DNA of 64,000 nt from positions 14,188 to 78,187 of the forward strand of contig MKWA01000007.1 of assembly GCA_001899285.1 (NCBI GenBank), given 5' to 3'. Each line of letters starts with the position of its first letter. Within the stretch, counting starts at the first letter, position 1. The notes below the pieces were generated by a model that worked only from the letters and a program-made list of their open reading frames with translations, made no database searches and was not told the DNA's origin. Shown piece by piece: positions 30,749 to 49,181 of the stretch. Source of the DNA: Rhizobiales bacterium 64-17 (lineage in GTDB: Bacteria; Pseudomonadota; Alphaproteobacteria; Rhizobiales; Xanthobacteraceae). A program made the translations under genes and the position numbers.

Positions 30749-31348
30749 TCAGCTGTTGAAGGCGGCAATCGCGTCAGCGACGGTGACGATCTTTGCCACC
30801 GGCCGCAATCCGTCGATTGCCGCGCGGTGCAATTCCTCGGTGAAGGCGGCGCAGCCATCCTCGATCACCGTGCAATGGAATTCCCGCACATGCGCGTCGC
30901 GCACCGATGACGCCACGCCACCATTGGTGACGATGCCGGTGAAATAGAGATCCTCGATGCCGCATTTGCGCAGCACCCATTCCAGTCGCGAGGCGTGGAA
31001 GGCGGAGTAGGCGATCTTCTCGACCGCGGTATCGATCGGCGTGAGTTCGTCGATCACCTGCTGGCCCCACGAGCCGGGCATGAAATCGCCTTCCGCCAAA
31101 AACGGCCGCAGCGCCTTGAGATGCGGCGAGATGATCGGCTCGCCGCCGCGGCCGGGAACCAGCGTGAATAACGTAGCGACGATCAGCACGCCGTTGTCGC
31201 GCGCGGTGGCCACCAGCGGCGCGAGCCGCGCGGGGAGCGCGGCGATCGCCGGCGCGCTTTGCCCGGCACGGCCGTAGGCGCCGTTCGGATGCAGGAAATC
31301 GTTTTGCAGATCGCCAAGGATCAATGCGGTGCGGGCTTTGTCGGTCAT
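30749..31348 (-). CDS. Isochorismatase-like hydrolase lacking the catalytic cysteine
   Basis: 199-residue alpha/beta protein of the cysteine hydrolase family (isochorismatase, nicotinamidase, maleamate amidase, ureidoacrylate hydrolase). The Asp13 (GDLQNDF) and Lys111 (EKIAYSAF) of the triad are present, but the segment GIVTNGGVASSVRDA has Gly144 where amidases carry the nucleophilic Cys. True isochorismatases also lack that cysteine, so an ether or hydrolase reaction of that kind, or loss of activity, is possible. Last gene of the nine-gene GntR operon; ATGA overlap with hyuA. The long upstream in-frame extension lies inside hyuA and is rejected. Confidence 0.85.
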   Translation of the reverse strand: MTDKARTALILGDLQNDFLHPNGAYGRAGQSAPAIAALPARLAPLVATARDNGVLIVATLFTLVPGRGGEPIISPHLKALRPFLAEGDFMPGSWGQQVIDELTPIDTAVEKIAYSAFHASRLEWVLRKCGIEDLYFTGIVTNGGVASSVRDAHVREFHCTVIEDGCAAFTEELHRAAIDGLRPVAKIVTVADAIAAFNS

Positions 31349-33393
31349 GGGCGCTCCACGATCAGATTGCCGAGATCGTCCAGCCGCCCGGTGAAGCCGG
31401 GCTCGATCACGGTGGTGGCGTCCGGCTGTTCGAGGATCGCCGGGCCTTCGATCACGCTTCCGGCCGGAAGATCGAGCCGGGACCAGATTTGGGTCTCGCG
31501 CACACCGCCGTCGAACCACACCGGGCGGGACGGCCGCCGCGCGGCTTCGAGCGATGCGGCCGCCGGTGGCGCGAAGATCGAGAAATCGAACGACGGTCTG
31601 CGCCCGATGGCCGCCACGCGCATCGCCGCGATCCGCACCGGCAGACCTGTCAGCAGCCGGCTGAACGACGCGCGATAGGAGGTCTCGAACGCGGCCCGGA
31701 TCGCCTCGCGCGTGACATCGCCTGAAGCCGGCAGCGCGACCGGTGCGCGAACGGTGTGTGTCTGGCCGAGATAGTGGACGTCGAATTCGTGCACCACGTC
31801 GACGCGTTCGACCGGAATGCCGGAGGTTTCGACGACGCTAGCGGCTTCCGATGCGGCGTCGCGCATGCGTGTGGTCAACGCTGCCGTATCGAGCGTATCG
31901 AGCATCAGGTTCAATGTTTGCACGCTATCGTGGCGGACATCGGCGAGCACGCAGCCGATCGCGGAGGTGTTGCCGGGGAAGCGTGGCACCAGCGCGCATT
32001 TCAGCCCGACCTGCCGGATCAGTGCGCAGACATGCAGTGCGCCGCCGCCGCCGAACGGCATGGCGATGAACTTCGCCGGATCGTGGCCGCGTTCGATGGA
32101 GACGAGCCGGATCGCGCCGGCCATCCGCGCCTCCGCCACCTGCAGGATCGCAGCGGCGGCCGCTTCGGCGTCGATCCCAAGCGGCGTGCCGACATGTGTC
32201 ACAATCGCCGCGCGTGCGGCGGCGACATCGAGCGATTTCAGTTCGCCGCCGATCGGCCGCGTCGCATTGATGCGGCCGAGCACGACCTGCGCGTCGGTCA
32301 AGGTCGGGCGCGTGTTGCCCTGGCCGTAGCAGACCGGGCCGGGGACTGAGCCCGCGCTTTCAGGCCCGACCTGCAGCAGACCGCTGCGGTCCACCGAAGC
32401 GATCGAGCCGCCGCCGGCGCCGATGGTGGTGATCTCGATCATCGGCGTGCGGATCACCATGCCGAAATCGATGGTGGTCTGCGCCGCCACCGACGCCGTG
32501 CCGTTAACGATCACGGAGACGTCGAACGACGTGCCGCCGAGATCGCAGGTGATGACATTGTCGAAGCCGGCGGATCGCGCAATCGCCATGCCGGCGACGA
32601 CGCCGGCGGCCGGCCCGGACAGCGCGGTGCGGATCGGCAGCCGCCGCGCGGTGTCAGTCGACATGATGCCGCCGTTCGACTGCACGATCTGCAACTGGCC
32701 GGGGAAATTCTGGGCAACCAGCGTGCCTTCGAGCTTGCCGAGATAGGACGCGACGACCGGCTGCAGATAGGCGTTCAGCGCCGCCGTCGAGGTGCGTTCG
32801 AATTCGCGGATCTCCGACAGCACCGCGTGCGAGGCCGTGACGAAATCATTGGGCCAGACGCTGCGGACGGCGTCGAGCGCGCGCTTCTCGTTTTCCGCAT
32901 TGGCGTAGGCGTTGATGAACACGACCGCGACGCTCTGTGCGCCCCTCGCGAGCAACTGCTGCGCGGCGGCTTTCACCTCGGCCGGATCGACGGCGACGCG
33001 GATACTGCCGTCGGCGAGCGTCCGCTCGTTCACCTCGAGCCGCAAATCGCGCTCCGCGACCGGCACGAAATCGCCCCACAATCCCCAGGTCTGGCGCCGG
33101 TCACGTCGGCGCATCTCCAGCGCATCGCGGAAGCCCTTGGTGGTGATGACACCGACCTTCGGCCCGCGCCGCTCCAGCAGTGTATTCGTGCCGACGGTGG
33201 TGCCGTGCACGATCGAGCCGATGGCGGCGATGCCACCGAGCGCGTTCAGCCCGTTGAGGAAGCCGCGCGATTCATCGCCGCGTTGCGACGGCACTTTGGC
33301 GGTGCGGAAGCCACGCGCTGCCGCGTCGAACATGAAGAGGTCGGTGAAGGTGCCGCCGACATCGACGCCGACGATGGAGGTGGGCCTGCTCAT
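31345..33393 (-). CDS. hyuA: Hydantoinase/oxoprolinase family protein, subunit A
   Basis: 682-residue ATP-binding subunit of the hydantoinase A/5-oxoprolinase/acetone carboxylase family. Actin-like ATPase signatures are GVDVGGTFTDLFMFD at 9-23, HGTTVGTNTLLERRG near 64-78 and CDLGGTSFDVSVIVNG near 285-300, with GAGGGSIASVD. It works with HyuB encoded upstream; the pair uses ATP to open lactams or hydantoins or to carboxylate substrates. Overlaps both neighbours by four bases (ATGA). Confidence 0.92.
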   Translation of the reverse strand: MSRPTSIVGVDVGGTFTDLFMFDAAARGFRTAKVPSQRGDESRGFLNGLNALGGIAAIGSIVHGTTVGTNTLLERRGPKVGVITTKGFRDALEMRRRDRRQTWGLWGDFVPVAERDLRLEVNERTLADGSIRVAVDPAEVKAAAQQLLARGAQSVAVVFINAYANAENEKRALDAVRSVWPNDFVTASHAVLSEIREFERTSTAALNAYLQPVVASYLGKLEGTLVAQNFPGQLQIVQSNGGIMSTDTARRLPIRTALSGPAAGVVAGMAIARSAGFDNVITCDLGGTSFDVSVIVNGTASVAAQTTIDFGMVIRTPMIEITTIGAGGGSIASVDRSGLLQVGPESAGSVPGPVCYGQGNTRPTLTDAQVVLGRINATRPIGGELKSLDVAAARAAIVTHVGTPLGIDAEAAAAAILQVAEARMAGAIRLVSIERGHDPAKFIAMPFGGGGALHVCALIRQVGLKCALVPRFPGNTSAIGCVLADVRHDSVQTLNLMLDTLDTAALTTRMRDAASEAASVVETSGIPVERVDVVHEFDVHYLGQTHTVRAPVALPASGDVTREAIRAAFETSYRASFSRLLTGLPVRIAAMRVAAIGRRPSFDFSIFAPPAAASLEAARRPSRPVWFDGGVRETQIWSRLDLPAGSVIEGPAILEQPDATTVIEPGFTGRLDDLGNLIVERP

Positions 33394-35171
33394 GTGCGGT
33401 GCTCCTTGCGGAGCACGGCTGTTGCAGCGTCATCCACCGTTCCGTCGTTCCTGATCGATACCTTGTAGTCGCGCGCTGCGGCCACCGGAGAGACATACCC
33501 GAGCCGTACGTCGCGGGCGACGCGTTGCGGATCGCGCGCCGCCGGATCGCCGAAGCCGCCACCGCCCGGCGTTTCCAGCCGCGCCTTCTGGCCGCGCTTG
33601 AGACGAATATCGGTGGCCTTCGAAATGAGCGGCGGTGTTTTCTCACCCGCGTCTGTTTCATAGATAAAGCGGTTGAGCGCCGCCGGTCCGCCGCCGTTGA
33701 CACCGAATGGCGGATATTTGCCGCGCTCGCCGAGGATGAACACCTCCGCGCCGCTGTCGGCCAGCGCTTCGACTTCATAGATCGCGCCAAGCCCGCCGCG
33801 ATGCTGGCCGGGGCCTGCGGAATCGGGCCGCAGCGCCCATTGCGTGAACATCACCGGATAAAGCGATTCAAGAATTTCCACCGGCGGGATCGTTGCGGTC
33901 GAGATCGGGTTGTTGCCATGGTTGAGGCCATCGCCTTCCGGATTGCCGCCAAGGCCGCCGCCGAAGAAACAGAACATCACCCAGCGGCGGCCGTGCTCGC
34001 GCCAGCCGGCGAGCGACAGCGCGTTGATGGTGGCGAATGGGCTGCCGTTGGCGCGCTCTGGCGCGGCTTGCGCGAACGCACCGAAAATCACGTCGATGAC
34101 GCGAAGGATGGTTTCGGTGTAACCGCCGACCGGCTTCGGCGCCGACGCGCCGAGCAGGGTGGTGTCCGGCACCACGAAGTCGATCGGCGCGAGGCATCCG
34201 GCATTGGCCGGCACTTCGGTGAACAGATGCTTCAGCGCCACATAGCAGCAGGCGATGGTGGTGGCACGGGAGATGTTGAGTGGCCCTTCGCACGGCGCAG
34301 CTGAACGCGAGAAGTCGAGCGCCATCCGGTCGCCGGCGATGGTGAGATCGAGCGCGATCGGCAGCGGCGTGTCGGTGACGCCGTCATTGTCGAGGAAATC
34401 GTCGTAGCGGTAATGGCCATCCGGCAGCGCGGCGATATTGGCGCGCATCAGCGTCTCGGCGCGTGCGCTCAACGCCGCGAAGGCGGAGAGCACCGTGTCG
34501 TCGCCATATTCGTCGAGCAGGGCGTTGAGCCGCTGTTCGCCAAGATCGAGCGCGTTGAGCTGACCGTTGAGGTCGCCCCAATTGGACTGCGGCACGCGCG
34601 TATTGGCCGCGAGGATATCGACCACGTCCTGTTGCAGTACGCCGGCACGCACCAGCTTCACCGGCGGAATGCGGAAACCTTCCTGGAAGCTCTCTGTCGC
34701 CTTGGCGTTGAAGTTGCCCGGCACGTTGCCGCCCACATCGAGCCAGTGGCCGACCGAGGCGAGCCAGGCGAATACGCGGCCGCCGCGCATCAGCGGCCGG
34801 ATCAACCGGAAGTCGTTGAGATGCGTGCCACCGTCATAGGGATCGTTGAACAGGAACGTGTCGCCGGCGTCCAAACCGCCGTCGCGCGCTACTTTGTCGA
34901 TCACGGCCTTCACCGCGAAGGCCATGGCGCCGACGAAGATCGGCAGGCCGGACGTGCCCTGCACCAGCGTCGCGCCGGTCTCGGCATGATAGAGGCCGTG
35001 GCAGGCGTCGTGCGCCTCGGCGATGATCGGATTGAACGCGGAGCGGAACAGCGTCGCGTCCATCTCGTCGGCGATCTGGACGAGGCGGCCGTTGAGCACG
35101 GCAAGGGTTACGGGATCGAGCGTCACGGGATCAAGGGTGATGGGGTCGAGCGTGGTCACGGACTGCTTCAC
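33390..35171 (-). CDS. hyuB: Hydantoinase/oxoprolinase family protein, subunit B
   Basis: 593-residue HyuB. It has FNDPYDGGTHLNDFRLI near 108-124, with the H117-x-x-D120 pair typical of the metal site, SVGHWLDVGGNVPGNFNAKA, NNPISTATIPPVEILE and the C-terminal LETPGGGGFGDPAARDP. The N-terminus contains three copies of a LDPxT unit coded by a 15-base tandem repeat (35110-35154). The start is supported by ATGA overlap with the lyase gene. No zinc-ribbon C-terminal extension, unlike the second HyuB at 58931. Confidence 0.92.
   Translation of the reverse strand: MKQSVTTLDPITLDPVTLDPVTLAVLNGRLVQIADEMDATLFRSAFNPIIAEAHDACHGLYHAETGATLVQGTSGLPIFVGAMAFAVKAVIDKVARDGGLDAGDTFLFNDPYDGGTHLNDFRLIRPLMRGGRVFAWLASVGHWLDVGGNVPGNFNAKATESFQEGFRIPPVKLVRAGVLQQDVVDILAANTRVPQSNWGDLNGQLNALDLGEQRLNALLDEYGDDTVLSAFAALSARAETLMRANIAALPDGHYRYDDFLDNDGVTDTPLPIALDLTIAGDRMALDFSRSAAPCEGPLNISRATTIACCYVALKHLFTEVPANAGCLAPIDFVVPDTTLLGASAPKPVGGYTETILRVIDVIFGAFAQAAPERANGSPFATINALSLAGWREHGRRWVMFCFFGGGLGGNPEGDGLNHGNNPISTATIPPVEILESLYPVMFTQWALRPDSAGPGQHRGGLGAIYEVEALADSGAEVFILGERGKYPPFGVNGGGPAALNRFIYETDAGEKTPPLISKATDIRLKRGQKARLETPGGGGFGDPAARDPQRVARDVRLGYVSPVAAARDYKVSIRNDGTVDDAATAVLRKEHRT
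35110..35154. repeat. 15-base tandem repeat, three copies, in the hyuB start region
   Basis: Three consecutive 15-base units beginning ACGGGATCGAGCGTC, ACGGGATCAAGGGTG and ATGGGGTCGAGCGTG on the plus strand. In the hyuB frame they encode the repeated LDPxT pentapeptide near residues 8-22. Copy number could vary between strains without changing frame. Confidence 0.8.
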
Positions 35172-36046
35172 CCCTTTTGGGTCGGATCGTAGCTCTGGCC
35201 GAGCGCGACCATGTCCGGCGTGCCGAGCAGAGCGTTGAGGCCATCGAAATCCAGCATGCGGTCGCGGAACGGCTCGGTCGTGCCGTTCTTCGCCAGCGAG
35301 CCGTAATAGTCGGTCGCCATCTTTCCAAGCGCGCGGGCGATGCCGCCGGGGAAGATCACCAGCGAGAAGCCGATGGCTTCAAGCTCGGACGCGGCGAGTG
35401 GCGGCGTCTTGCCGCCTTCCACCATATTGGCGAGCAGCGGCGTCTTGCTGCCGAGCGCCTTGGCGATGCGTGCGAGATCGTCGCGCTGCTTCGGCGCCTC
35501 GACGAACAGCACATCGGCGCCGGCCTCGCGATAACGTTCCGCACGCTCCAGCGCGCGATCGACGCCTTCGACGGCGACGGCGTCGGTACGGCCGATGATC
35601 AGCGTGTAGCGGGAGTGCCGCGCATCGACCGCGGCGCGGATCTTGCCGCACATCTCGTCGGCGGGGATCAGCACCTTGCCGTCGAGATGGCCGCAGCGTT
35701 TCGGAAAATCCTGATCCTCGAGCTGGATTGCCGATGCGCCGGCGCGCTCGAACAGCCGCACCGTACGCATGACGTTGAGCGCGTTGCCGTAGCCGGTGTC
35801 GGCATCGACAATGATATGGCTTTTGATCCGGTCGCGGATTAGGGCCAGCGTTTCCGCGACTTCGCTCATGCCGACGAGACCGATGTCGGGTCGGCCGAGG
35901 CGGGTATAGGCGATGCCGGCGCCGGTGAGATAGACGCAGCCGAAGCCCACGGCCTCCGCCACATGCGCGGTGAAGGCGTCATAGACGCCGGGCGCGACGG
36001 TGATGGGCTTGCGCGCGAGGCGTTCTCGCAGGGTTTTGTCGGTCAT
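35168..36046 (-). CDS. Isocitrate lyase/PEP mutase superfamily lyase (methylisocitrate/dimethylmalate lyase-like)
   Basis: 292-residue TIM-barrel enzyme. Metal-binding VDADTGYGNALNV at 80-92, the mobile-loop KRCGH at 116-120 with catalytic Cys118, as in methylisocitrate lyase and 2,3-dimethylmalate lyase, then GRTDAVAVEG near 154 and LANMVEGGKTPPL. The Cys-containing loop argues for C-C lyase activity on a 2-hydroxy dicarboxylate or tricarboxylate, not P-C bond mutase. Lies between livF-like and hyuB genes in the GntR operon, opposite a LeuCD-type hydratase on the divergent arm; the pair could act in sequence. Confidence 0.88.
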   Translation of the reverse strand: MTDKTLRERLARKPITVAPGVYDAFTAHVAEAVGFGCVYLTGAGIAYTRLGRPDIGLVGMSEVAETLALIRDRIKSHIIVDADTGYGNALNVMRTVRLFERAGASAIQLEDQDFPKRCGHLDGKVLIPADEMCGKIRAAVDARHSRYTLIIGRTDAVAVEGVDRALERAERYREAGADVLFVEAPKQRDDLARIAKALGSKTPLLANMVEGGKTPPLAASELEAIGFSLVIFPGGIARALGKMATDYYGSLAKNGTTEPFRDRMLDFDGLNALLGTPDMVALGQSYDPTQKG

Positions 36047-36047
36047 C

Positions 36048-36773
36048 TCACATTCCCAGATAGGTTCGCTTGAGATCGGGATTGTCGCGCAGCGTGGCGA
36101 CGTCGCCTTGCAGCACGAACTGGCCGTTGTCGAGCACGTAGGCGCGTTGCGCCACGTCGAGGCTCTGCACCACGTTCTGCTCCACCAGCAGGATGGCGAT
36201 GCCTTCCGCGTTGATGGTCTGGATCAGCGCGAACAATTCTTCCACCAGCAGCGGCGACAGGCCGAGCGACGGTTCGTCGAGGATCAGCAGTTGCGGGTCG
36301 GCCATCAGCCCGCGGCCAATGGCCAGCATCTGCTGCTCGCCGCCGGAGAGCGTACCAGCGCGCTGGTTCTGCCGTTCGGATAGGCGCGGGAAAATCGAGA
36401 ACACGCGGGCGAGTGTGTCGCGGCTACGGCCGCCGCCGCGCCGATAAGCGCCAAGGTCGAGGTTTTCCCGCACCGACAGGTTTGGGAATACGCGACGGCC
36501 TTCCGGTACATGGATCAGCCCGCGGGCGACAATGCGGGCTGGACTGTCGCGCTCGATCGCTGTGCCGGCAAAGCGGATGCTGCCGCTCCAAGCGCGGTTG
36601 ATGCCGGACAGCGTGCGGTTGAGTGTGGATTTTCCGGCGCCGTTGGAGCCGAGTACGGCGATAATCTCGCCACGGTGGATGGTGAGATCGACGCCACGCA
36701 ACACTTCGGTGATGCCGTAGCCGGAGCGCAGGTTTTCGACGGCAAGGATCGGATCAGGCACAGGCTCAACCAT
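36048..36773 (-). CDS. livF: Liv-type ABC ATPase (LivF)
   Basis: 241-residue ATPase: Walker A GSNGAGKST near 38, LIHVPEGRRVFPNLSV (LivF-typical), signature LSGGEQQMLAIGRGL, Walker B LLILDEPSLGLSP and VEQNV. ATG 36773 is chosen since the longer frame enters livG by more than 60 bases; the chosen start overlaps the livG stop by eight bases. Part of a second complete Liv importer. Confidence 0.9.
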   Translation of the reverse strand: MVEPVPDPILAVENLRSGYGITEVLRGVDLTIHRGEIIAVLGSNGAGKSTLNRTLSGINRAWSGSIRFAGTAIERDSPARIVARGLIHVPEGRRVFPNLSVRENLDLGAYRRGGGRSRDTLARVFSIFPRLSERQNQRAGTLSGGEQQMLAIGRGLMADPQLLILDEPSLGLSPLLVEELFALIQTINAEGIAILLVEQNVVQSLDVAQRAYVLDNGQFVLQGDVATLRDNPDLKRTYLGM

Positions 36774-37527
36774 AGGCTGCTCCCGCTTGCAGCATCCGCT
36801 GCGCCGCACCGCGGCCGAGATAGGCCTCGACAACATGCGGATTGCCGGCGATCTCGCTCGGCGTGCCGCCGGCGATGATCCTGCCTTCGGACAGCACGAG
36901 GACGTGCTGCGCGAGGTTCATCACGGCGTGCATGATGTGCTCGATCATGATCACGGTGATGCCCTGATCGACCAGACCACGGATGACCGGCACCATGTCG
37001 CGCACTTCCGACGGATTAAGACCGGCGAGCACCTCGTCGAGCAACAGCAGACGCGGTTTGAGCGCCAGTGCGCGGGCGAGTTCAAGCCGTTTGCGGCCGG
37101 CGACTGTGAGACCGGCGGCGGGCTTGTCGAGCTGGTCGGCGAGGCCGACGCGGGCAGCGATCTCGTCGGCGGCGGCCAGCGCATCGGCGCGGCGCGGTTG
37201 CGACAGATGTGCGCCCACCGCGATGTTCTCGCGCACGGTGAGCCCGGCGAACGGCTGCACGATCTGAAAGGTGCGGGCGATGCCGCGTTGCGCGAGGCGA
37301 TGTGGCGGCACGCCGACGATATTCTCGCCCTCGAACAGAACGCGCCCGGAGGTCGGCGGCTGGAAGCCAGAGATGATCGAGAACAGCGTGGTCTTGCCGG
37401 CTCCGTTGGGCCCGATCAGGGCGGTGATGCGTCCGGCCTGCGCGTCGAAGCTCGCGCCGTCGACGGCGAGCAGCCCGCCAAAGCGCTTGCTGATCGTCTC
37501 CACGCGCAGCATCACGGGATCAGACAT
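36766..37527 (-). CDS. livG: Liv-type ABC ATPase (LivG)
   Basis: 253-residue ATPase: Walker A IGPNGAGKTTLFSIISG near 36-52, GIARTFQIVQPFAGLTVRENI, and Walker B LLLLDEVLAGLNPSE, with Val replacing the usual Pro after DE, as is frequent in LivG. The signature is AGLTVAGRKRLELARAL, again the degenerate LivG form. Overlaps livM and livF by eight bases each. Confidence 0.9.
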   Translation of the reverse strand: MSDPVMLRVETISKRFGGLLAVDGASFDAQAGRITALIGPNGAGKTTLFSIISGFQPPTSGRVLFEGENIVGVPPHRLAQRGIARTFQIVQPFAGLTVRENIAVGAHLSQPRRADALAAADEIAARVGLADQLDKPAAGLTVAGRKRLELARALALKPRLLLLDEVLAGLNPSEVRDMVPVIRGLVDQGITVIMIEHIMHAVMNLAQHVLVLSEGRIIAGGTPSEIAGNPHVVEAYLGRGAAQRMLQAGAAYG

Positions 37528-38518
37528 GATGCCCCGCCGTGGGTTGTTCCGGTTTTGCCTCCGGTTTGCGCCGGACGATACGGGCGCGCAGGTCGGCGAC
37601 CACGCCGGCGATGCCGCGCGGCGCCAGCGCGATCACCAGCACCAGCACGCCGCCATAGATCATCAGATCGAGACCCGGCGCATCGCCGGTGACGAGCTTT
37701 GCCGCTTCGCCCAGCACCTTGACGACCAGCGCGCCGAGCAGCGGTCCGAATACGGTGCCGACGCCGCCGATGATCGGCGCCAGCAGTGCTTCGATGGAGA
37801 TCCACGGGCCGTAGGCGATGCCGGCGTCGATGAACAGGAAATACTGTACATAGAAGCCGCCGGCCGCGGCGACGATGGCGGCGGAGATAACCATCGCCCC
37901 GAGTTTCACCGCGATGACATTGACGCCGAGCGCCTTCGCCGCTTCCTCGTTCTCGCGCACGGCGACGAGATAGGCGCCGAACCGGCTGTTCTCGATCGCG
38001 CGCACGATCAGCAGCGAGACGGTGACGAGCGCAAGGATGATCCAGTAGAACGGCACGCGGCTCTGGAACTGAAACGCTTCCGGCCGCAGATCGAGTTTCA
38101 CCAGCAGGCCGACACCGGCACCGGTGATCGGCGTGACGCTGGCGAGGATGCGCAGAACCTCGGCGAAGGCGAGCGTCACCAGCGCGAAATAGGAGCCGCG
38201 CAGGCCGGAGCGGAAGCTCAAGCCACCGATGATCGCGCCGGCCAGCGCGCCCGCGCCGATGCCGGCGGCGAATGCGATCCAGGCATTGACGCCGTAACGC
38301 AGTTGCAGGATCGCCGAGACATAAGCGCCGGTGCCGAAGAAGGCGGCATGGCCGAATGAATACTGCCCGCCGTAGCCGCCGAGCACGTTCCAGCCCTGGC
38401 CGGCGAGCGCGATGATCAGCGCGGTGACGAGGAAGTTCAGCGTCACATTGGATACGCCGAATAGCGGCACCGCGGCGAGCAGCGCGGCCACGACGAGGAT
38501 GGTGCCGACGCCCTTCAC
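37520..38518 (-). CDS. livM: Liv-type ABC permease (LivM)
   Basis: 332-residue membrane subunit with the LivM motif NVLGGYGGQYSFGHAAFFGTGAY near 45-67 (quoted in part), GSYFALVTLAFAEVLRI and YLVAVRENEEAAKALGVNV. It begins with GTG at 38518 and overlaps the livH stop by GTGA. The C-terminus is basic and proline-rich after ADLRARIVRRKPEAKPEQP. Confidence 0.9.
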   Translation of the reverse strand: MKGVGTILVVAALLAAVPLFGVSNVTLNFLVTALIIALAGQGWNVLGGYGGQYSFGHAAFFGTGAYVSAILQLRYGVNAWIAFAAGIGAGALAGAIIGGLSFRSGLRGSYFALVTLAFAEVLRILASVTPITGAGVGLLVKLDLRPEAFQFQSRVPFYWIILALVTVSLLIVRAIENSRFGAYLVAVRENEEAAKALGVNVIAVKLGAMVISAAIVAAAGGFYVQYFLFIDAGIAYGPWISIEALLAPIIGGVGTVFGPLLGALVVKVLGEAAKLVTGDAPGLDLMIYGGVLVLVIALAPRGIAGVVADLRARIVRRKPEAKPEQPTAGHHV

Positions 38519-39387: not shown

Positions 39388-39404
39388 ACGCAAACTCGAA
39401 AGGG

Positions 39405-39427
39405 CGGGCGGCCGATCGGGCCGCCCG
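39405..39427 (-). other. GC-rich intercistronic hairpin between livK and livH
   Basis: CGGGCGGCC (39405-39413) pairs with GGCCGCCCG (39419-39427) around five bases. No T-run follows on the transcribed (minus) strand. It probably stabilises the livK message or attenuates reading into the permease genes, as proposed for the other two receptor genes in this window. Confidence 0.65.
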
Positions 39428-39436
39428 TGAGAGAGA

Positions 39437-40654: not shown

Positions 40655-40690
40655 GAGCGTTTCTCCCCTCTGTTCACGATCGTTTGCTAT

Positions 40691-41539
40691 TCAGCGTGAT
40701 GTTGTGTGGCGCGGCTTCTGCGTCCGCGAACTCTTATTGCTTGAAGCCTTTTTGCCGGGCGTCTTGCTCCGCGCGCGCTTGGCCACCGGCGTCCAGCGCC
40801 GTGCGCCGCTGGAGCCGGCGCGCTCCATCTCCATTTCGAAGGTGTAGCGGTCGGGCCGGTAGAGCGCGTGCAGATGCTCGACCCCACGTCCGTCTTTATC
40901 AAAGACGATGCGGGTCAATTCGATCAGCGGCGATCCGGTGCGCACGTCGAGCGCGTGCGCGATCTCGGGCGTGGCCAGCGCCGCGCCGAGGCGCTGTGTG
41001 GCGCGCTCGATCCGCACGCCGGAGCGCTCCAGCAGGGTCAGCAACGGGCCGCTCGCCAGTTCGGTTCTGGAATAGGTCTTGCCGATATGTTCCGGCACAT
41101 GGGTCGTCAGATAGGAGAAGGCGACGCCCTTGAACTGTCGCACGCGCACGGAGCGTTGCAGTTTTTCTTCCGGCGGCAGGCCGAGCGCGGTGCCGACCGG
41201 TCCGGCCGACGGCACATAATCGAATGCCAGCAGCTTGATCGTCGTGCGCTTGCCCATCTCCGCGCGGGTCGCCAGCGCACCGGTGATGTCGGCGGTGAGC
41301 GGCCCGGATTCCGGCTTGTAGATGACGCGGGTGCCGCTGGCGCGCCGGCGCTCGATCAGCCGCTCGCGCGCCAGTTCCTCCAGCGCGCGGCGCACCGTGA
41401 CGCGCGACACGCGATGAAAGCGCGCGAGGTCGTTCTCGGTCGGCAGGCGGGTGCCGTGCGCGAAACTGTTGCTGAGAATGCGGTCGCGCAGGATCAGATA
41501 GATCCGCCGCGCTTTCGCTTCGCCCAGTTGCTCCGCCAC
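40691..41539 (-). CDS. GntR family regulator, HutC/UTRA type, with basic C-terminal tail
   Basis: 282-residue regulator. GntR winged helix: IYLILRDRILSNSFAHGTRLPTENDLA region and SRVTVRRALEELARERLIERRR at about 43-66. The UTRA ligand domain follows, with the sugar/amino acid-type ...LIELTRIVFDKDGRGVEHLHALYRPDRY end (in parts). The last roughly 40 residues are an unusual Lys/Arg/Ser/Thr tail (KRARSKTPGKKASSNKSS and so on). GTG start at 41539 has GGGAGA seven bases upstream. First gene of the liv-lyase-hyu operon and divergent from the leuC-like gene, so it likely controls both arms. Confidence 0.9.
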   Translation of the reverse strand: MAEQLGEAKARRIYLILRDRILSNSFAHGTRLPTENDLARFHRVSRVTVRRALEELARERLIERRRASGTRVIYKPESGPLTADITGALATRAEMGKRTTIKLLAFDYVPSAGPVGTALGLPPEEKLQRSVRVRQFKGVAFSYLTTHVPEHIGKTYSRTELASGPLLTLLERSGVRIERATQRLGAALATPEIAHALDVRTGSPLIELTRIVFDKDGRGVEHLHALYRPDRYTFEMEMERAGSSGARRWTPVAKRARSKTPGKKASSNKSSRTQKPRHTTSR

Positions 41540-41579
41540 GACGCGTCTCCCAAGGCCGGGTTGTCTGTCCGGGTTGCGT

Positions 41580-41631
41580 GTTGACGTCTCCCGTTATTAG
41601 TATCATTTATCATACCAAGTTCGGCGTCAAC
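41580..41631. promoter_or_regulatory. Divergent promoter region with candidate GntR operator
   Basis: The 124-base gap between gntR and the leuC-like gene is AT-rich in its centre. GTAT (41600-41603) and ATAC (41612-41615) form an inverted repeat around eight bases, the form expected for a HutC-type GntR site, and TATCAT occurs twice in direct order seven bases apart inside it. Around it GTTGACG (41580-41586) and CGTCAAC (41625-41631) form a wide seven-base inverted repeat. Confidence 0.5.
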
Positions 41632-41651
41632 TGCCGGGAACCCGGCCCGGT

Positions 41652-41681
41652 TTTCGATGTGACATGGCTTTCGATGTGACA
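41652..41681. repeat. 13-base direct repeat across the leuC-like start
   Basis: TTTCGATGTGACA is present at 41652-41664 and again at 41669-41681, so that the start codon lies at the end of the first copy. The two copies are 17 bases apart in register. It may reflect a small duplication that built the present start. Confidence 0.7.
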
Positions 41682-43088
41682 AGCGGCCTGACTTTGTTCG
41701 ACAAGCTGTGGAGCGCGCACGAGATCGTGCGCCGCGACGATGGCGAGGCGCTGCTGTTCGTCGACCGCCACTATGTGCATGAAGGCTCGTTTCACGCGTT
41801 CGACCAGATCGCGCGGCGCGGCGCCGCGGTGGCGCATCCGGAACTGACCTTCGGCGTCGCCGACCATTATGTGCCGACGCGCGGCTCGCGCGCGACCATC
41901 GCCAATCCCGAGATCGCGCGGATGGTACGGCAGCTCGACGACAACACCGCGAAGCACGGCATCCGCCTGTTCGGATTGAGCGATCCACGGCAGGGCATCG
42001 TCCATGTGGTCGGTCCGGAGCAGGGGCTGACGCTTCCCGGCCTGCTGATCGTCTGCGGCGACAGTCATACATCGACCCATGGCGCACTCGGGGCCTATGC
42101 ATTCGGCATCGGTGCGTCGGAAGTGGCGCATGTGTTGGCGACGCAGACCATCTGGCAGCGCAAGCCGAAGCGGATGCGCGTCACCGTCGACGGCAAGCTC
42201 GGCTCCGGCATTGCCGCCAAGGACATGGCGCTGGCGATCATTGCCCGGATCGGAGCGGACGGCGCGACGGGTCACGCCATCGAATACGCCGGTTCGGCCG
42301 TGCGCGGCCTGAGCATCGAGGGCCGCCTGACGCTGTGCAATCTGTCGATCGAGGCCGGCGCGCGCCTCGGCCTCGTCGCGCCGGATGAGACGACATTTGC
42401 CTATCTCAAGGGCCGTCCGTTCGCGCCAGTCGGTGAGGCGTTCGCGCGTGCGGTCGAAGATTGGTCCGCGCTGCGCAGCGACGATGATGCCAGCTTCGAT
42501 GCGGAGGTTTCGCTCGCGGCCGCCGACATTGCGCCGATCGTGACCTGGGGCACGAGTCCGGAGGATGCGCTGCCGATCGATGGCCGCGTTCCCGATCCGG
42601 CGCGCGAACCGAACGAGGCGCGGGCACAATATTTGCGCGAGGCGCTCGATTACATGGGCATCGCGCCCGGCGCACGGCTCACCGACATTGCGGTGGACCG
42701 GGTGTTCATCGGCTCCTGCACCAATTCGCGGATCGAGGATTTGCGCGCCGCCGCGGCGGTGCTCGCCGGCCGCACCAGCAAGGTGGCGGGGCTCGTCTCC
42801 GCCGGTTCGTCGCTGGTGAAGCAGCAGGCCGAACAGGAAGGGCTCGACGCCATTTTCCGCGACGCGGGGCTGGAGTGGGCGGAGTCCGGTTGCTCCATGT
42901 GCGTCGGCATCAATGGCGATCTGGTCGCGTCCGGCGAGCGTTGCGCCTCGACGACCAACCGCAATTTCCGCGGCCGGCAGGGGCCGGGCGCGCGCACGCA
43001 TCTGATGTCGCCGGCGATGGTGGCGGCCGCCGCCGTCACCGGCCATCTCGCCGATGTGCGTCCGCTGCTGGCGGGGCGCAAGCCATGA
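41664..43088 (+). CDS. LeuC-like aconitase-family hydratase, large subunit
   Basis: 474-residue homologue of the 3-isopropylmalate dehydratase large subunit. The [4Fe-4S] ligands are Cys352 (GSCTNSRIEDL), Cys410 and Cys413 (GCSMCVGIN); DSHTSTHGALGAYAFGIG near 133-150 and DHYVPTR are also typical. Because it is in a catabolic GntR-controlled cluster, with a receptor gene between it and the small subunit and no leuA/leuB, I do not call it leuC. Aconitase-family LeuCD pairs also act as maleate hydratase, citraconase and dimethylmaleate hydratase. No clear ribosome site precedes the ATG; a 13-base direct repeat spans the start. Confidence 0.9.
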   Translation: MAFDVTSGLTLFDKLWSAHEIVRRDDGEALLFVDRHYVHEGSFHAFDQIARRGAAVAHPELTFGVADHYVPTRGSRATIANPEIARMVRQLDDNTAKHGIRLFGLSDPRQGIVHVVGPEQGLTLPGLLIVCGDSHTSTHGALGAYAFGIGASEVAHVLATQTIWQRKPKRMRVTVDGKLGSGIAAKDMALAIIARIGADGATGHAIEYAGSAVRGLSIEGRLTLCNLSIEAGARLGLVAPDETTFAYLKGRPFAPVGEAFARAVEDWSALRSDDDASFDAEVSLAAADIAPIVTWGTSPEDALPIDGRVPDPAREPNEARAQYLREALDYMGIAPGARLTDIAVDRVFIGSCTNSRIEDLRAAAAVLAGRTSKVAGLVSAGSSLVKQQAEQEGLDAIFRDAGLEWAESGCSMCVGINGDLVASGERCASTTNRNFRGRQGPGARTHLMSPAMVAAAAVTGHLADVRPLLAGRKP

Positions 43089-43110
43089 CCACGATCGAGG
43101 AGAGCAGGCA

Positions 43111-44076
43111 ATGATGTTTCCCAGCCGCATCCTGATGCTGGCCGCGATCCTGCTGCTGGCACCGCAGGCGGTTCGCGCCGATGACTATCCCGCGCGCCCG
43201 GTGAAGCTCCTGGTCGGCGCGCCGCCCGGCGGCACCACCGACACGATCGCGCGGGCCATCGCCACGCCGATGGCGGCGGCGCTGAAGCAGAGCGTGATCG
43301 TCGAAAACAGACCCGGCGCCGGCGGCAATCTCGCCGCTGATACGGTCGCGAAAGCGGCGCCTGACGGCTACACCCTGCTGGTGAGCTTCAGCAGCCACAC
43401 CATCAATGCCTCGCTTTATCCGAAGCTGCCGTTCGATCCGGCGGCGGATTTCACTGCGATCACCAAGGTCGCGACGGTGCCGAGCCTGCTGGTCGGCAAT
43501 CCGAAAGTCCCCGCGCAAGACCTCAAGGCGCTGATCGATCTGGCCAAGGCCCAGCCGGACAAGTTGACCATCGGCCTCGGCGGCATCGGTTCGTCGCTGC
43601 ATCTCGCCGGCGAGAAGTTCAAGCTGATGACCGGCGTGCGCATGCTCAATGTGCCGTACAAGGGGACGGCACCGGCGCTGACCGATGTGCTCGGCGGGCA
43701 ACTCGATCTCATGTTCATCAGTCTGGTGACGGGCGCCGAGCATGTGCGCGCCGGCACATTACGTGCCTATGGCGTGACCAGCGCGCAGCGGCTTCCGGCA
43801 TTCCCGGATGTGCCGGCGATCGGCGAGGCCGTCCCCGGCTTTGAATCGACTGCATGGTTCGGCGTGTTCGGGCCGGCGAAGCTGCCGCCCGCGATCACTG
43901 AAAAGCTGAACGCCGTCATCGTCGGCGCGCTGGCCGATCCGGATTTGCGCGCGCGCCTGCAAACCGAAGGCGCGACGCCGGTGGGCGACACGCCGGCCGC
44001 GTTCGCCGCTTTCGTCCGGGAGGACATCGCGCGCTGGGCGCCGATCGTGAAGGCGTCGGGTGCGACGGTGAATTGA
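43111..44076 (+). CDS. Bug/TctC family periplasmic solute receptor
   Basis: 321-residue receptor of the tripartite tricarboxylate transporter family. Signal peptide to about residue 22 (LLLAPQAVRA-DD), then YPARPVKLLVGAPPGGTTDTIAR, VENRPGAGGNLAADTVAKAAPDGYTLLV and VPYKGTAPALTDVLGG, all diagnostic (quoted in parts). GAGGAGAG precedes ATG 43111. No TctA or TctB membrane gene is in the window, as with most Bug proteins. Lies between the two subunits of the hydratase, so its ligand is probably a dicarboxylate or its precursor. Confidence 0.92.
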   Translation: MMFPSRILMLAAILLLAPQAVRADDYPARPVKLLVGAPPGGTTDTIARAIATPMAAALKQSVIVENRPGAGGNLAADTVAKAAPDGYTLLVSFSSHTINASLYPKLPFDPAADFTAITKVATVPSLLVGNPKVPAQDLKALIDLAKAQPDKLTIGLGGIGSSLHLAGEKFKLMTGVRMLNVPYKGTAPALTDVLGGQLDLMFISLVTGAEHVRAGTLRAYGVTSAQRLPAFPDVPAIGEAVPGFESTAWFGVFGPAKLPPAITEKLNAVIVGALADPDLRARLQTEGATPVGDTPAAFAAFVREDIARWAPIVKASGATVN

Positions 44077-44124
44077 TGTCACAAGAAATCGGCGCGGATG
44101 GAGAATTGATGGCAGAGACGTATC

Positions 44125-44745
44125 ATGGATAAGTTCGTCCGGCTGACGGCCGCGGCCTGCCCGATCGACATCATCAATCTGAACACCGACCAGTTGTTGC
44201 CGGCGCGGTTCCTGAAGCGGCCGCGCGCCGAGGGGATCGGCGATGCGCTGCTGCGCGACCTGCGGTTCGATTCTGCGGGCCATGAAGTCGCGGATTTCCC
44301 GCTCAATCGTCCGGCGTGGCGCGATGCGAAGATCATCGTCGGCGCGCGCAATTTCGGCTGCGGTTCGTCGCGCGAGGCGGCGGTCTATGCGCTGGTCGAT
44401 TACGGTATTCGCTGCGTCATCGCGCCGTCGTTCGGCGACATCTTTTCCGGCAACGCCGTGCAGAACGGGCTGCTGACGGCCATCGTCACCGACGCCGAAG
44501 CGGCGGACATCTCCGCGATGCTGGCGCACGCGCCGGACCTGCCGCTGACCGTCGATCTCGAAACCCAGACCATCCTCTGCGGCAACCACACTTATGCGTT
44601 CATCGTCGATCCGGTGCGTCGTGCCAAGCTGATCAATGGTCTGGATGACATCGGTCTGACCGAAACCTATCGCGACAGGATCGCGACATTCGCCGCCGAG
44701 GATCGCATTCGCCGTCCGTGGGCCATCCCCGGAGGGGTGCCATGA
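44125..44745 (+). CDS. LeuD-like aconitase-family hydratase, small subunit
   Basis: 206-residue swivel domain partner of the LeuC-like protein. IDIINLNTDQLLPARFLKR (the N-terminal NTD.I.P motif), ARNFGCGSSREAAVYAL near 78-94 and the FGDIFSGNAVQNGLL segment match isopropylmalate dehydratase small subunits. Its separation from the large-subunit gene by a receptor gene is unusual. ATGA overlap with the next gene, the FAD monooxygenase. Confidence 0.9.
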   Translation: MDKFVRLTAAACPIDIINLNTDQLLPARFLKRPRAEGIGDALLRDLRFDSAGHEVADFPLNRPAWRDAKIIVGARNFGCGSSREAAVYALVDYGIRCVIAPSFGDIFSGNAVQNGLLTAIVTDAEAADISAMLAHAPDLPLTVDLETQTILCGNHTYAFIVDPVRRAKLINGLDDIGLTETYRDRIATFAAEDRIRRPWAIPGGVP

Positions 44746-45941
44746 GCAAGGCTTCGCCTCATGTCGTCATCGTCGGTGCCGGTCCGGTGGGGCTGACGGC
44801 GGCGCTGCTGCTCGGACACAAGGGCATCAAGGTCACGGTGTTCGAGGCCGGCGACGATATTTCGCATGAGCTGCGTGCCTCGACGTTCCATCCACCGACG
44901 CTCGACATGATGTCGCCGTTCGGTATCACCGCGCAGATGCTGGCGGCGGGGCTGACATGCCCGACCTGGCAGATCCGGATGCACCCCTCCGGCGATCGCG
45001 CGGTGTTCGACCTGTCGGTGCTGCGGGACGACACCGATTATCCGTATCGCCTGCAATGCGAGCAATCGAAATATTGCGAGTTCGTCCTGGCGGCGGTGCA
45101 GGCTCTGCCGAATGTCATGGTGGCGTTTTCGTCGCCGGTCACTGGCGTCACCCAGACGACGGACGCGGCGACCGTTCATGTTGCTGCGGAAGACGGCGAG
45201 CGTGACGTGACGGCGGATTACGTCATCGGTTGCGACGGCGCGCACAGCGTGGTGCGCAAGTCGCTCGGCATCGAACTCTCCGGCGACATTTATCCGGAGA
45301 CGACGATTCTGGCGACCACGCATTTCCCGTTCCATGAACGGCTCGAAGGCCTGTCCAACGTTTCCTATTGCTGGAAGCCGGGCGGCACCTTCAGTCTGTT
45401 GCGCCTGCCGGATGTCTGGCGCGTCAGTCTCTATCCGCGTCAGGGACAGACGGTGGAACAGGCGCTCGAGCCCGAGATGCAGCAGGAACTGTTGCACGAA
45501 ATCGTGCCGGATACGGGCCGCATCGACGTGTTGCAGACACGGCCCTATCGTATCCATCGTCGGCTCGCGTCGTCTTACGGGCACGGCCGGGTGTATCTCG
45601 CCGGCGATGCGGCGCATCTCAACAGCCCGTCCGGCGGCATGGGCATGAACGGCGGCATCCACGACGCCTTCAACCTGTGCGAGAAACTCGTCGCGGTGAT
45701 CGAAGGCGCGGACGCCGCGCTGCTGCAACGTTATGAGCGGCAGCGCCGGCCGATCGCGGAAGAGGAGATCATCGCGCAGGCGCACCGCAACCGCACGCGG
45801 ATGCTGGAACGCGACGACGGCAAGCGCCAAGCTATGCTCGACGATCTCAAGCGAACCACCGACGATCCGGTGAAACTTAAGACCTACTTGCTCAAGTCAT
45901 CGATGTTCGAGGGGCTGCGCCGCGCGGCCGCCGTGACATAA
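44742..45941 (+). CDS. FAD-dependent aromatic monooxygenase (PHBH/UbiH family)
   Basis: 399-residue single-component flavin hydroxylase. FAD motifs: VVIVGAGPVGLTAALLLG at the N-terminus (GxGxxG), DG motif GCDGAHSVVRKSLG near 165, and GD motif YLAGDAAHLNSPSGGMGMN near 285. The family hydroxylates phenols and hydroxylated heterocycles such as 6-hydroxynicotinate with NAD(P)H and oxygen. ATG 44742 overlaps the LeuD-like stop. In this context it would prepare an aromatic or heteroaromatic ring for cleavage to the dicarboxylate handled by the hydratase, which is inference. Confidence 0.9.
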   Translation: MSKASPHVVIVGAGPVGLTAALLLGHKGIKVTVFEAGDDISHELRASTFHPPTLDMMSPFGITAQMLAAGLTCPTWQIRMHPSGDRAVFDLSVLRDDTDYPYRLQCEQSKYCEFVLAAVQALPNVMVAFSSPVTGVTQTTDAATVHVAAEDGERDVTADYVIGCDGAHSVVRKSLGIELSGDIYPETTILATTHFPFHERLEGLSNVSYCWKPGGTFSLLRLPDVWRVSLYPRQGQTVEQALEPEMQQELLHEIVPDTGRIDVLQTRPYRIHRRLASSYGHGRVYLAGDAAHLNSPSGGMGMNGGIHDAFNLCEKLVAVIEGADAALLQRYERQRRPIAEEEIIAQAHRNRTRMLERDDGKRQAMLDDLKRTTDDPVKLKTYLLKSSMFEGLRRAAAVT

Positions 45942-45973
45942 TCCTCTCCCGTCGCAACGAAACGGAGCTTTCC

Positions 45974-46960
45974 ATGCATCCCAATCGCCGTTCCTTCACC
46001 CGTTTCGTTGTCGCGGCTGTTTTCGCCGCAACGGCATCCGTGGCGCATGCGGCGGATGATTTTCCGACGCGGCCGATCACCATCATCGTGCCGTTCCCGC
46101 CGGGCGGCAGTTCCGACATCGTCATGCGCGTGATCGCGCAGAAGGCGGCGGAAAAGCTCGGCCAGTCGATCATCATCGAGAACCGGCCCGGTGGCGCCGG
46201 CAATGTCGCCGCGGTGGCGATCAAGCACGCGTCGCCGGATGGCTATCTCATGATGATGGGCCATGCCGGTACGCACGCCATCAACGCCACGCTCTACACC
46301 AATCTGCCGTTCGATCCGGTCAAGGATTTTACGCCGGTCGCGCCGCTGACCTCGTTCAGCAATATTCTGATGGTGCCGAAGAACAGCCCGGCGAAGACCA
46401 TGGCCGACCTGGCCGCCTTGGCGAAATCGAAGCCGGAGGGTCTGAGCTACGGCTCGCAAGGCGTCGGCACCAGTGGCCATCTGCTCGGCGTGCTGTTCGC
46501 CAAGGAGGCAGGCATCAAGCTCCTGCATGTGCCGTATCGCGGCATCGCGCCGGCGGTGACCGACGCAGTCGCCGGCCGTGTCGATTTCCTGTTCTCGTCC
46601 TACATTTCCGCCGCCGGCCATGTGCAGTCCGGCGATTTGCGCATGCTGGCGAATGCCGGCGAGAAGCGTCATCCGCGCATCCCCGATGTGCCAACCACGG
46701 CGGAAGCGGGTTTCCCCAATGTGCAAATGACGCAATGGTTTGGTCTGTTCGCGCCGGCCGGGCTGCCGCAGCCCATTTTGAAGAAGCTCAACGACGCCTT
46801 CGTCGCTGCGATGCAGACCGATGACGTGAAGCAAAAGATCGTACCGCAGGTGTCGGAACTGATCCCCGGCCCGCCGGAGGCGCTGGCGGCACTGGTGAAG
46901 CGCGACCTCGTGCGTCTCGGTCAGGTGGTGCGCGAGTCGGGCGCCAAGGTCTCGCAGTAA
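45974..46960 (+). CDS. Bug/TctC family periplasmic solute receptor
   Basis: 328-residue second receptor. Signal peptide with HPNRRSFTRF, hydrophobic core and cleavage after AHA near residue 27; then FPTRPITIIVPFPPGGSSDIV, IENRPGGAGNVAAVAIKHA and VPYRGIAPAVTDAVAGRVD (in parts). Only about a typical paralogue level of likeness to the first receptor, so not a recent duplicate. Likely feeds the same catabolic route. Confidence 0.92.
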   Translation: MHPNRRSFTRFVVAAVFAATASVAHAADDFPTRPITIIVPFPPGGSSDIVMRVIAQKAAEKLGQSIIIENRPGGAGNVAAVAIKHASPDGYLMMMGHAGTHAINATLYTNLPFDPVKDFTPVAPLTSFSNILMVPKNSPAKTMADLAALAKSKPEGLSYGSQGVGTSGHLLGVLFAKEAGIKLLHVPYRGIAPAVTDAVAGRVDFLFSSYISAAGHVQSGDLRMLANAGEKRHPRIPDVPTTAEAGFPNVQMTQWFGLFAPAGLPQPILKKLNDAFVAAMQTDDVKQKIVPQVSELIPGPPEALAALVKRDLVRLGQVVRESGAKVSQ

Positions 46961-46976
46961 AGGCATCGCGGGAGCC

Positions 46977-47735
46977 ATGTCGCTCGAATACGCATCGCGC
47001 GGTCTGGTCGGCATGCTGACGCCGCAGGCCAATACGACGGTGGAGCCGGAGTTCAACCTGCTCTGGCCGTCCGGCGTGGCGATGATCAATGCGAGGCTTC
47101 TGAGCGACAAGCCGACCATCGCCGCGCGACTGGTCGATTATTTCGCGCATTACGGTTCGGCGCTCGATCAGTTCGCCAATGCGCCGATCCGTGTGGCCGG
47201 CGCGGCCTGCACCGGTGCGTCCTATCTCGCCGGGCGCGAGCGTGAGGCGGCGCTGCTGGCGGAGGTGTCGGCACGACGCGGCTATCCGTTCATCACCGCG
47301 GCGGTGGCGGTGGTTGATGCACTCAACGTCATGCAGGCGCGGCGCATCGCGCTGGTCTCGCCTTATCCTGACGATCTGAACGCCGCGAGCATCGCCTATT
47401 GGCAGAGCCACGGCTTTGCCGTCGATCGGGTCGCGCGTGCGTTCAACACGGCCGCGGCGTTTCATCCGATCTACAGTCTCGAAGGCGAGGCGGCGGCGCA
47501 GGCGTTGCGTGAGCTGGAGAATGCGCCGGTCGACGCCATCGTCATGCTCGGCACCGGCATGCCGACCCTGCGTCCGTTGCGCGACGTGCGCGGCTGGCGC
47601 GGCGCGCCCGCGATGTCGTGCAATCTCTGTCTGGCGTGGCGGATGGTGGAGGTACTGGACGGCGCGACCCCGCGTGCCGAGACCTTGCGCCGCTGGATCG
47701 CCGGTGAGCCGTGGGCGGCTCGGCTCGACGGCTAG
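46977..47735 (+). CDS. Maleate isomerase/arylmalonate decarboxylase family protein
   Basis: 252-residue Asp/Glu-racemase-fold enzyme. GMLTPQANTTVEPEFNLL near 12-29 is typical of maleate isomerases, and the two catalytic cysteines are Cys78 (AACTGASYL) and Cys214 or Cys217 (AMSCNLCLAW). Converts maleate (or a substituted maleate) to fumarate-type product, or decarboxylates a malonate. Starts 16 bases after the receptor stop, closing the plus-strand arm; 13 bases separate it from the convergent sdaA. Confidence 0.87.
   Translation: MSLEYASRGLVGMLTPQANTTVEPEFNLLWPSGVAMINARLLSDKPTIAARLVDYFAHYGSALDQFANAPIRVAGAACTGASYLAGREREAALLAEVSARRGYPFITAAVAVVDALNVMQARRIALVSPYPDDLNAASIAYWQSHGFAVDRVARAFNTAAAFHPIYSLEGEAAAQALRELENAPVDAIVMLGTGMPTLRPLRDVRGWRGAPAMSCNLCLAWRMVEVLDGATPRAETLRRWIAGEPWAARLDG

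Positions 47736-47748: not shown

Positions 47749-49181
<1,433 letters not shown>

Follow-up and report, generated by a model that had tools for sequence, protein, structure and literature searches.

What might a bacterium degrade with a locus that joins a LeuCD-like hydratase to an isocitrate lyase (ICL)-type lyase, a two-subunit hydantoinase and a relative of maleate isomerase? Such a locus lies at positions 30749-47735 of the 64,000-nucleotide stretch analysed here (the window), taken from contig MKWA01000007.1 of Rhizobiales bacterium 64-17, whose genome amounts to 4.63 Mb over 26 contigs. All 16 genes that a first-pass annotation had named there are present, each with family support from profile matches. 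Comparison with other genomes showed that this is a real, conserved catabolic cluster of known folds in a new combination, for which our literature search found no description. It is composed of a wider back end (LeuCD, GntR, LivKHMGF, the ICL-type lyase, HyuBA and the isochorismatase-like protein) and one of two front ends, and key residues read from the alignments contradict two of the family names it had been given, that of an isochorismatase-like amidase and that of a two-Cys isomerase. We consider it about an even chance that the locus is GntR-controlled and serves to degrade a nitrogen-containing ring via a substituted maleate to a 2-oxoacid and an acid; the order of the steps is what we infer.

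A back end combined with one of two front ends

The comparison set of the same family comprised 198 genomes. The isomerase-like protein has a match of at least 49% in 15 of them, the window's own included, and the next best match falls to 32%. Eight of the 14 other genomes carry both arms of the cluster and the Liv transporter in one stretch, so the arms are indeed linked outside the window, as the first-pass annotation required. In one further genome (G194) the locus is interrupted by a contig end, and the others hold partial arrangements: three (G008, G052, G078) keep the lyase, Bug receptor, monooxygenase and isomerase-like genes with a different LeuC type and without HyuAB, and in two (G070, G079) the monooxygenase and isomerase-like pair is separate from the back end, which sits in another part of the respective genome. 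Beyond the family, species genomes were scanned for the isomerase-like protein, and 212 stretches were found to encode a relative of it, with 80 of them listed. Among the matches listed, the relatives belong to Rhodospirillales, Roseomonas, Pigmentiphaga, Polaromonas, Ottowia and others, and the closest is a Pseudolabrys metagenome-assembled genome (L032), a near copy of the window with an isomerase-like protein that is 94% identical. The isomerase-like family is found in 79 and the monooxygenase family in 57 of the 85 clustered loci.

Gene content was counted in 111 loci: 85 that are the window or were reached via the isomerase-like gene, 20 from back-end matches and six plasmid stretches from Azospirillum, Neorhizobium, Tistrella, Sulfitobacter and Roseomonas, five of them found by back-end proteins and one by the isomerase-like protein. 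Left out were one Cupriavidus stretch without annotation and ten duplicates (L033, L035-L040, L057, L071, L072). The lyase, HyuB or the isochorismatase-like gene is present in 63 of the 111. Among these 63, the FAD monooxygenase accompanies the isomerase-like gene in 32, a flavoprotein of the flavocytochrome c/fumarate reductase group is present in 16, the isomerase-like gene stands alone in six and neither front end is seen in nine; both front ends in one locus were found in none of the 63. The choice of loci partly favours this separation, since the 20 were picked because no isomerase-like orthologue adjoined, and only part of such matches was fetched. However, the absence of the flavoprotein from all 38 isomerase-like-bearing loci of the 63 was not selected for. 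Across the 63 loci the monooxygenase and isomerase-like genes behave as an exchangeable front end, and the earlier picture of the cluster as a single unit does not hold.

The 198 genomes were also searched with the isochorismatase-like protein, the lyase, the monooxygenase and HyuB, and the back end proved more widespread than the isomerase-like gene. HyuB matches of at least 67% occur in 32 of the 198 family genomes (the window genome and a few partial matches included), and in 29 of these 32, by hand count, the lyase gene is beside HyuB. Of 39 loci that hold HyuB, 37 also have HyuA and the isochorismatase-like gene. Furthermore, a LeuC of either type is found in 48 of the 53 loci that bear the lyase, which is in line with the hydration followed by lyase cleavage that had been proposed from the window alone.

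Active-site residues of the isochorismatase-like and isomerase-like proteins

The isochorismatase-like gene (30749-31348, minus strand; PF00857, 132 bits) probably starts at 31348 rather than 31519. The position of the RutB Cys aligns with a Gly of its product, within the motif GIVTNGGVAS, and TNGGVA or a near form, with Cys replaced by Gly, is present in 51 of 51 orthologues of at least 45%, the window included; one of the 51 (L086) fell outside the script pattern and was read from the alignment by eye. Since the nucleophile Cys of TN-x-C-V is Gly throughout, an ordinary isochorismatase-fold cysteine amidohydrolase such as RutB or biuret hydrolase was rejected. Distant paralogues in L083 and L138 retain TN-x-C. 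Asp13 and Lys111 show no variation in either aligned set (13 and eight proteins), and the predicted fold (predicted local distance difference test score, pLDDT, of 81) matches cysteine hydrolases and true isochorismatases alike. True isochorismatases act on a vinyl ether via Asp, without a Cys. Because they work without Cys, we propose general-acid hydrolysis for the cluster protein too, which here would be directed at an enamine.

The isomerase-like protein (46977-47735, plus strand; PF17645 Amdase, 53 bits) carries Cys78 and Gly192, placed by alignments and by the predicted fold. A Foldseek search with its predicted model (pLDDT 88) returned maleate isomerases and arylmalonate decarboxylases (AMDases), the best match being 2xec, a maleate isomerase; structure prediction and fold search thus support the assigned folds. 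The first Cys position of the family holds Cys in 72 of 79 and Thr in the other seven, and the second is Gly in 79 of 79, so that those seven have neither Cys. An ordinary maleate cis/trans isomerase, with two catalytic Cys, was rejected on this Gly, and the earlier suggestion of a cis/trans isomerase is not supported in that form. Cys78 takes the position of AMDase residue 74 and maleate isomerase residue 76, on the face opposite AMDase Cys188, and Gly192 takes that of AMDase Cys188 and maleate isomerase Cys194. The counterparts of AMDase Thr75 and Tyr126 are kept, whereas those of Ser76 and Gly189 are Gly and Thr. A true AMDase was rejected on the mirror arrangement of Cys78 and Gly192 and on the curated score (58.4 against 225 bits).

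An excerpt of PMC4996985 gives Gly74, Cys188, Ser76 and Gly189 as the criteria for AMDases and the natural substrate of AMDase as unknown. The 58 new natural candidates described there had been selected for their similarity to the Bordetella enzyme, and Cys74 is found in none of them. According to an excerpt of PMC12576825, AMDases engineered to carry Cys74 together with Gly or Ser at position 188 form the opposite, (S)-product, and the plain G74C/C188S mutant has an activity 20,000-fold below wild type. In its Cys arrangement, as far as residues tell, the isomerase-like family usually resembles these engineered enzymes.

These residues bear on a maleate-type pathway resembling nicotinate degradation, in which the isomerase-like protein would interconvert the cis and trans forms of a substituted maleate and the isochorismatase-like protein would serve as a maleamate-type amidase. 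NicC, NicF and NicE of that degradation are of the flavin monooxygenase (FMO), isochorismatase-fold and maleate-isomerase-fold types, which counts for such a pathway, as do the nearness of the predicted fold to 2xec and the first Cys in most family members. Moreover, a solved maleate isomerase with its second Cys changed still carries a covalent succinylcysteine (by its entry title), so one Cys can attack the double bond. Against this stand the invariant Gly at the second position, the seven proteins with neither Cys and the loss of the isochorismatase Cys in all orthologues, and neither a ring-cleaving dioxygenase nor a deformylase was seen among the annotated cluster genes. We regard a maleate-type pathway as quite improbable.

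Three side observations concern the surroundings of the front-end genes. A fused nitrile hydratase-type gene adjoins the isomerase-like gene in Roseomonas-type loci (L052:10768-11847, L055:10768-11835). On the Roseomonas plasmid L138, some 180 kb separate the back end from the isomerase-like gene and an FAD-dependent oxidoreductase; around the latter two lie several Bug genes, a citrate-lyase-type aldolase and a pair of cysteine hydrolases. In L006 (G149) the monooxygenase matches as two pieces in different frames (2995-4213).

Proposed hydration, cleavage and overall route

The LeuC-like aconitase-family large subunit (41664-43088, plus strand; Aconitase domain) and the LeuD-like small subunit (44125-44745, plus strand; Aconitase_C) pass the curated NCBIfam cut-offs of the leucine enzymes (638 against 560 bits and 173 against 116 bits). 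They are not the only LeuCD of the genome, since contig C24 holds a further LeuC (54% identical) and LeuD (41.5%), and an AcnA-type gene (a 930-residue frame) is also found elsewhere. The motif GSSREH is a family mark of LeuD, and we take this stretch to lie at the active site. GSSREAA is present in 11 of 11 cluster LeuD proteins, and the other LeuD of the genome reads GSSREHA. A role as 3-isopropylmalate dehydratase of leucine biosynthesis was rejected, despite the cut-offs passed, because the GSSREH motif is absent and a second pair exists.

The ICL/PEPM-superfamily lyase (35168-36046, minus strand), assigned from profile matches and alignments, contains the Cys loop KRCGH and the motif NMVEGG. 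Each of the five positions of the loop, K(K/R)CGH, is kept at 95% or more in 29 aligned relatives. The curated PrpB score is not reached (275.9 against 354.4 bits), and the cluster lyase has VEGG where petal death protein (1zlp) has IEGG and the solved 2-methylisocitrate lyases compared have TEFG; the top profile match, 4iqd, likewise reads TEFG. Petal death protein is a lyase of alkylmalates, and as an argument from a motif EGG favours a substituted malate lacking the third carboxylate as the likely substrate. A role in the methylcitrate cycle was rejected, the lyase scoring below the PrpB cut-off.

These findings also bear on whether housekeeping paralogues of leucine biosynthesis and the methylcitrate cycle adjoin here by chance. 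LeuC and LeuD do pass the leucine cut-offs, the lyase resembles PrpB overall and some copies have a PrpD-family gene by the lyase. Yet the genome holds the second pair with GSSREHA and the AcnA-type gene, the PrpB cut-off is missed, and other genomes repeat both the gene order and the operator-like site, which makes chance adjacency very improbable.

Ring opening would fall to HyuA (31345-33393, minus strand; PF01968, 280 bits, PF05378, PF19278) and HyuB (33390-35171, minus strand; PF02538, 563 bits), subunits of the ATP-dependent hydantoinase/oxoprolinase family. HyuAB-type enzymes open lactams or hydantoins using ATP. The pair shares its two-subunit family with caprolactamase CapAB and hydantoinase-type HyuAB, but identity with CapAB was rejected at 489.5 and 301.3 bits against cut-offs of 1000, and here the genes are embedded with LeuCD and the lyase.

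In the proposed route the front end would convert an N-heteroaromatic compound to an unsaturated lactam or imide, whose ring HyuAB would open at the cost of ATP. Opening a lactam next to a ring double bond would give an enamine, the hydrolysis of which would yield ammonia and an aldehyde. The Cys-less isochorismatase-fold protein, which keeps its Asp and Lys, may act as a general-acid hydrolase on the opened product, most likely the enamine, and free the ammonia; with HyuAB it would do in two proteins what enamidase does in one. A substituted maleate would result, which the LeuCD-like enzyme would hydrate to an alkylmalate, and the Cys-loop lyase would cleave the latter to a 2-oxoacid (glyoxylate or pyruvate) and a carboxylic acid or semialdehyde. 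Two candidate substrates fit on paper: 2-pyridone-4-carboxylate, which would pass through a maleate bearing CH2CHO to glyoxylate and succinate semialdehyde, and an alkylmaleimide. An aldehyde dehydrogenase family is represented in 12 of the 85 clustered loci. Molybdenum-hydroxylase large subunits occur near the isomerase-like gene in a few loci; their best NCBIfam models, glyceraldehyde and carbon monoxide dehydrogenase, score below cut-off, so they lend little weight to a hydroxylation of the N-ring.

Four loci (L128-L131) have a cyclic amidohydrolase after the lyase gene, and HyuA, HyuB and the isochorismatase-like gene are absent from the locus. Searches of the same four genomes gave no HyuB match at 1e-120 and a single isochorismatase-like match, of 36%, at 1e-20. 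Allantoinase and D-hydantoinase are the best NCBIfam models of the L129 amidohydrolase, below cut-off, with dihydroorotase also among the best. With HyuAB present, or the amidohydrolase in these four loci, the N-containing ring that had been suggested as the starting point is supported. An amidohydrolase in place of three genes fits a two-protein enamidase and an imidase equally well.

The imidase would belong to a cyclic-imide route, which we consider rather unlikely. HyuAB, or the amidohydrolase, would open an alkylsuccinimide or alkylmaleimide to the half-amide, the isochorismatase-like protein would hydrolyse the amide by an unusual mechanism that needs no Cys, and the flavoprotein front end would dehydrogenate alkylsuccinate or alkylsuccinimide to the maleate level, before LeuCD and the lyase. 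The amidohydrolase scores best with models of a group that is named alongside imidase in abstracts, the best models for the flavoprotein are those of flavocytochrome c, with tricarballylate dehydrogenase models matching too (all below cut-offs), and one Neorhizobium plasmid copy carries an extra old-yellow-enzyme-type gene. However, ordinary half-amide hydrolysis is unlikely with Gly in place of the amidase Cys, and no close copy of the flavoprotein was found in the window genome, where the best match is 31%.

Several observations weigh against a nitrogen-ring route through HyuAB and the substituted maleate. Some front ends have no back end close by: the lyase, HyuB or the isochorismatase-like gene is seen in 38 of the 85 isomerase-anchored loci and none of them in 47, many of the stretches being short. 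HyuB is missing from the fetched stretch in 14 of 51 loci with the isochorismatase-like gene; of five Pigmentiphaga-type genomes, three have HyuB at 62-64% elsewhere and two only paralogues at 37-39%, and an Ottowia genome has HyuB relatives of only 34-35%. Three genomes of one genus are without HyuB or isochorismatase-like orthologues, so the ring-opening step is not universal. Of the nine full loci (the window and the eight others), four of the others have no gntR beside the cluster. Compared along its entire length, the lyase resembles 2-methylisocitrate lyase at least as much as any other enzyme, and enamine hydrolysis by an isochorismatase fold is a step that we infer.

Among described systems, the closest in logic is nicotinate fermentation by Eubacterium barkeri, where one enzyme, enamidase, carries out lactam opening and deamination (excerpts of PMC9304392 and PMC7356986). 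Its similarity to the proposed route lies in these two reactions, in the LeuCD-type hydration of a substituted maleate and in ICL-superfamily cleavage. The later steps in E. barkeri are those of the dimethylmaleate hydratase DmdAB and 2,3-dimethylmalate lyase, and the middle consists of hydroxymethylglutarate, methyleneglutarate and methylitaconate steps. Neither enamidase nor middle-step enzymes (methyleneglutarate mutase, dehydrogenase) were seen among the annotated cluster genes, where ring opening is tentatively assigned to HyuAB with the Cys-less protein and a monooxygenase stands in the front end.

The methylcitrate cycle (PrpD, aconitase, PrpB) shares with the cluster the logic of a dehydratase/hydratase with an ICL-superfamily lyase, and several relatives have a PrpD-family gene adjoining the lyase; it differs in the lyase features given above and in its citrate synthase, which was not seen among the annotated cluster genes. 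The nicotinate route of Aspergillus nidulans (HxnM cyclic imidase, HxnN amidase) resembles the proposed route in FMO hydroxylations, hydrolytic C-N opening and nitrogen release; its enzymes are fungal, its end product is hydroxyglutarate and no hydratase-lyase pair is described in the excerpt of PMC9304392.

Isonicotinate via citrazinate, pyridoxine, picolinate, urate and hydantoin routes were rejected because none accounts for LeuCD, the lyase and the missing Cys together. The literature search by family names found no paper with five of six, or four of five, of the names (most subscription journals lie outside the set searched), in agreement with the first-pass annotation, which knew of no described pathway with this set. 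It gave nothing usable on isonicotinate and citrazinate for the role of the cluster, no paper holding the term maleate hydratase among the matches listed for that enzyme with LeuC, and none pairing HspB with PnpA.

The nitrogen-ring reading can be extended to an undescribed aerobic pathway in Alphaproteobacteria and some Burkholderiales that would lead from N-heterocycles via substituted maleates to a 2-oxoacid. It would have exchangeable front ends, a two-protein enamidase (HyuAB with a Cys-less isochorismatase-fold enamine hydrolase) replaceable by a single amidohydrolase, and a natural mirror-image AMDase-like enzyme with its only catalytic Cys on the face otherwise reported for engineered enzymes. 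We think it unlikely that all these parts hold together. If the nitrogen-ring reading is right, genes from soil, rhizosphere and marine bacteria annotated as leucine biosynthesis, isocitrate lyase family, cysteine hydrolase and racemase would be one unrecognised N-heterocycle catabolic system, and nature might supply, in the isomerase-like family, a Cys arrangement so far engineered into AMDase. With its swapped front ends, an amidohydrolase in place of three genes and missing catalytic residues, the cluster allows precise tests of what HyuAB-type hydrolases do naturally.

Gene order, operator-like site and neighbouring genes

The two divergent arms that had been described are present, but gntR (40691-41539) is on the minus strand, so that the minus arm has ten genes and not nine. 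From GntR outward it reads GntR, LivK, LivH, LivM, LivG, LivF, ICL-type lyase, HyuB, HyuA and isochorismatase-like. The regulator is of the HutC type (GntR and UTRA domains) and is followed by the LivK-type substrate-binding protein (39437-40654; Peripla_BP_6), the LivH-type (38515-39393) and LivM-type (37520-38518) permeases and the LivG-type (36766-37527) and LivF-type (36048-36836) ABC ATPases, all on the minus strand, the last four assigned by family profile matches. The plus arm consists of LeuC-like, Bug 1, LeuD-like, FAD monooxygenase, Bug 2 and maleate-isomerase-like. Its two Bug/TctC receptors (43054-44076 and 45974-46960) were assigned by family match, and the monooxygenase (44718-45941; PF01494, FAD_binding_3) has PnpA and HspB as its nearest solved relatives. 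Since neighbouring genes overlap by a few bases in several cases, operons are likely. Bug 1 lies between leuC and leuD in none of the eight other full loci, and among the loci compared only the window and L032 show this order.

The symmetrical AT-rich site reported earlier was located in the leuC-gntR gap as a pseudo-palindrome at 41597-41618 (no strand assigned; TTAGTATCATTTATCATACCAA), with the core GTAT-N8-ATAC at 41600-41615. The core is present in 15 of 16 divergent leuC/gntR gaps, one of the 15 being that of the near copy L032, against 0-3 per 200 base shuffles of each gap, and it is often set within TTGGTAT...CATACAA. The count covered loci holding both genes at the thresholds; seven such loci were left out of it (six not divergent, one with a gap of 500). 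The operator-like site between the arms is thus conserved. In at least five loci without gntR there (L006, L007, L013, L015, L128), the leuC-livK gap has another element, CTAACATTGGTC or near it, followed in the same gaps by TATATTATCC or similar.

Further gene contents vary around the back end. In L115 and L119 (G056, G012), CoA-transferase, CitE-type lyase and metallo-hydrolase families are found beside HyuBA-isochorismatase-Liv, and LeuCD was not seen within the stretch. In L019 (1982-3977; G055) the genes immediately past the isochorismatase-like gene form a second LeuC/LeuD-like pair (55% and 40% identical).

To the right of the cluster in the window (47749-52100), an L-serine ammonia-lyase, in a frame with a long upstream extension, adjoins the glycine dehydrogenase gene gcvP. 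Such a pair would be fitting for the disposal of glyoxylate, but of the 85 clustered loci only the window and L032 share these flanking families. To the left (26915-30736) are an enolase-superfamily (MR_MLE_C) gene, genes for both subunits (alpha and beta) of a Rieske ring-hydroxylating dioxygenase and one for a TetR regulator; MR/MLE genes often adjoin AMDase genes too, according to the excerpt of PMC4996985.

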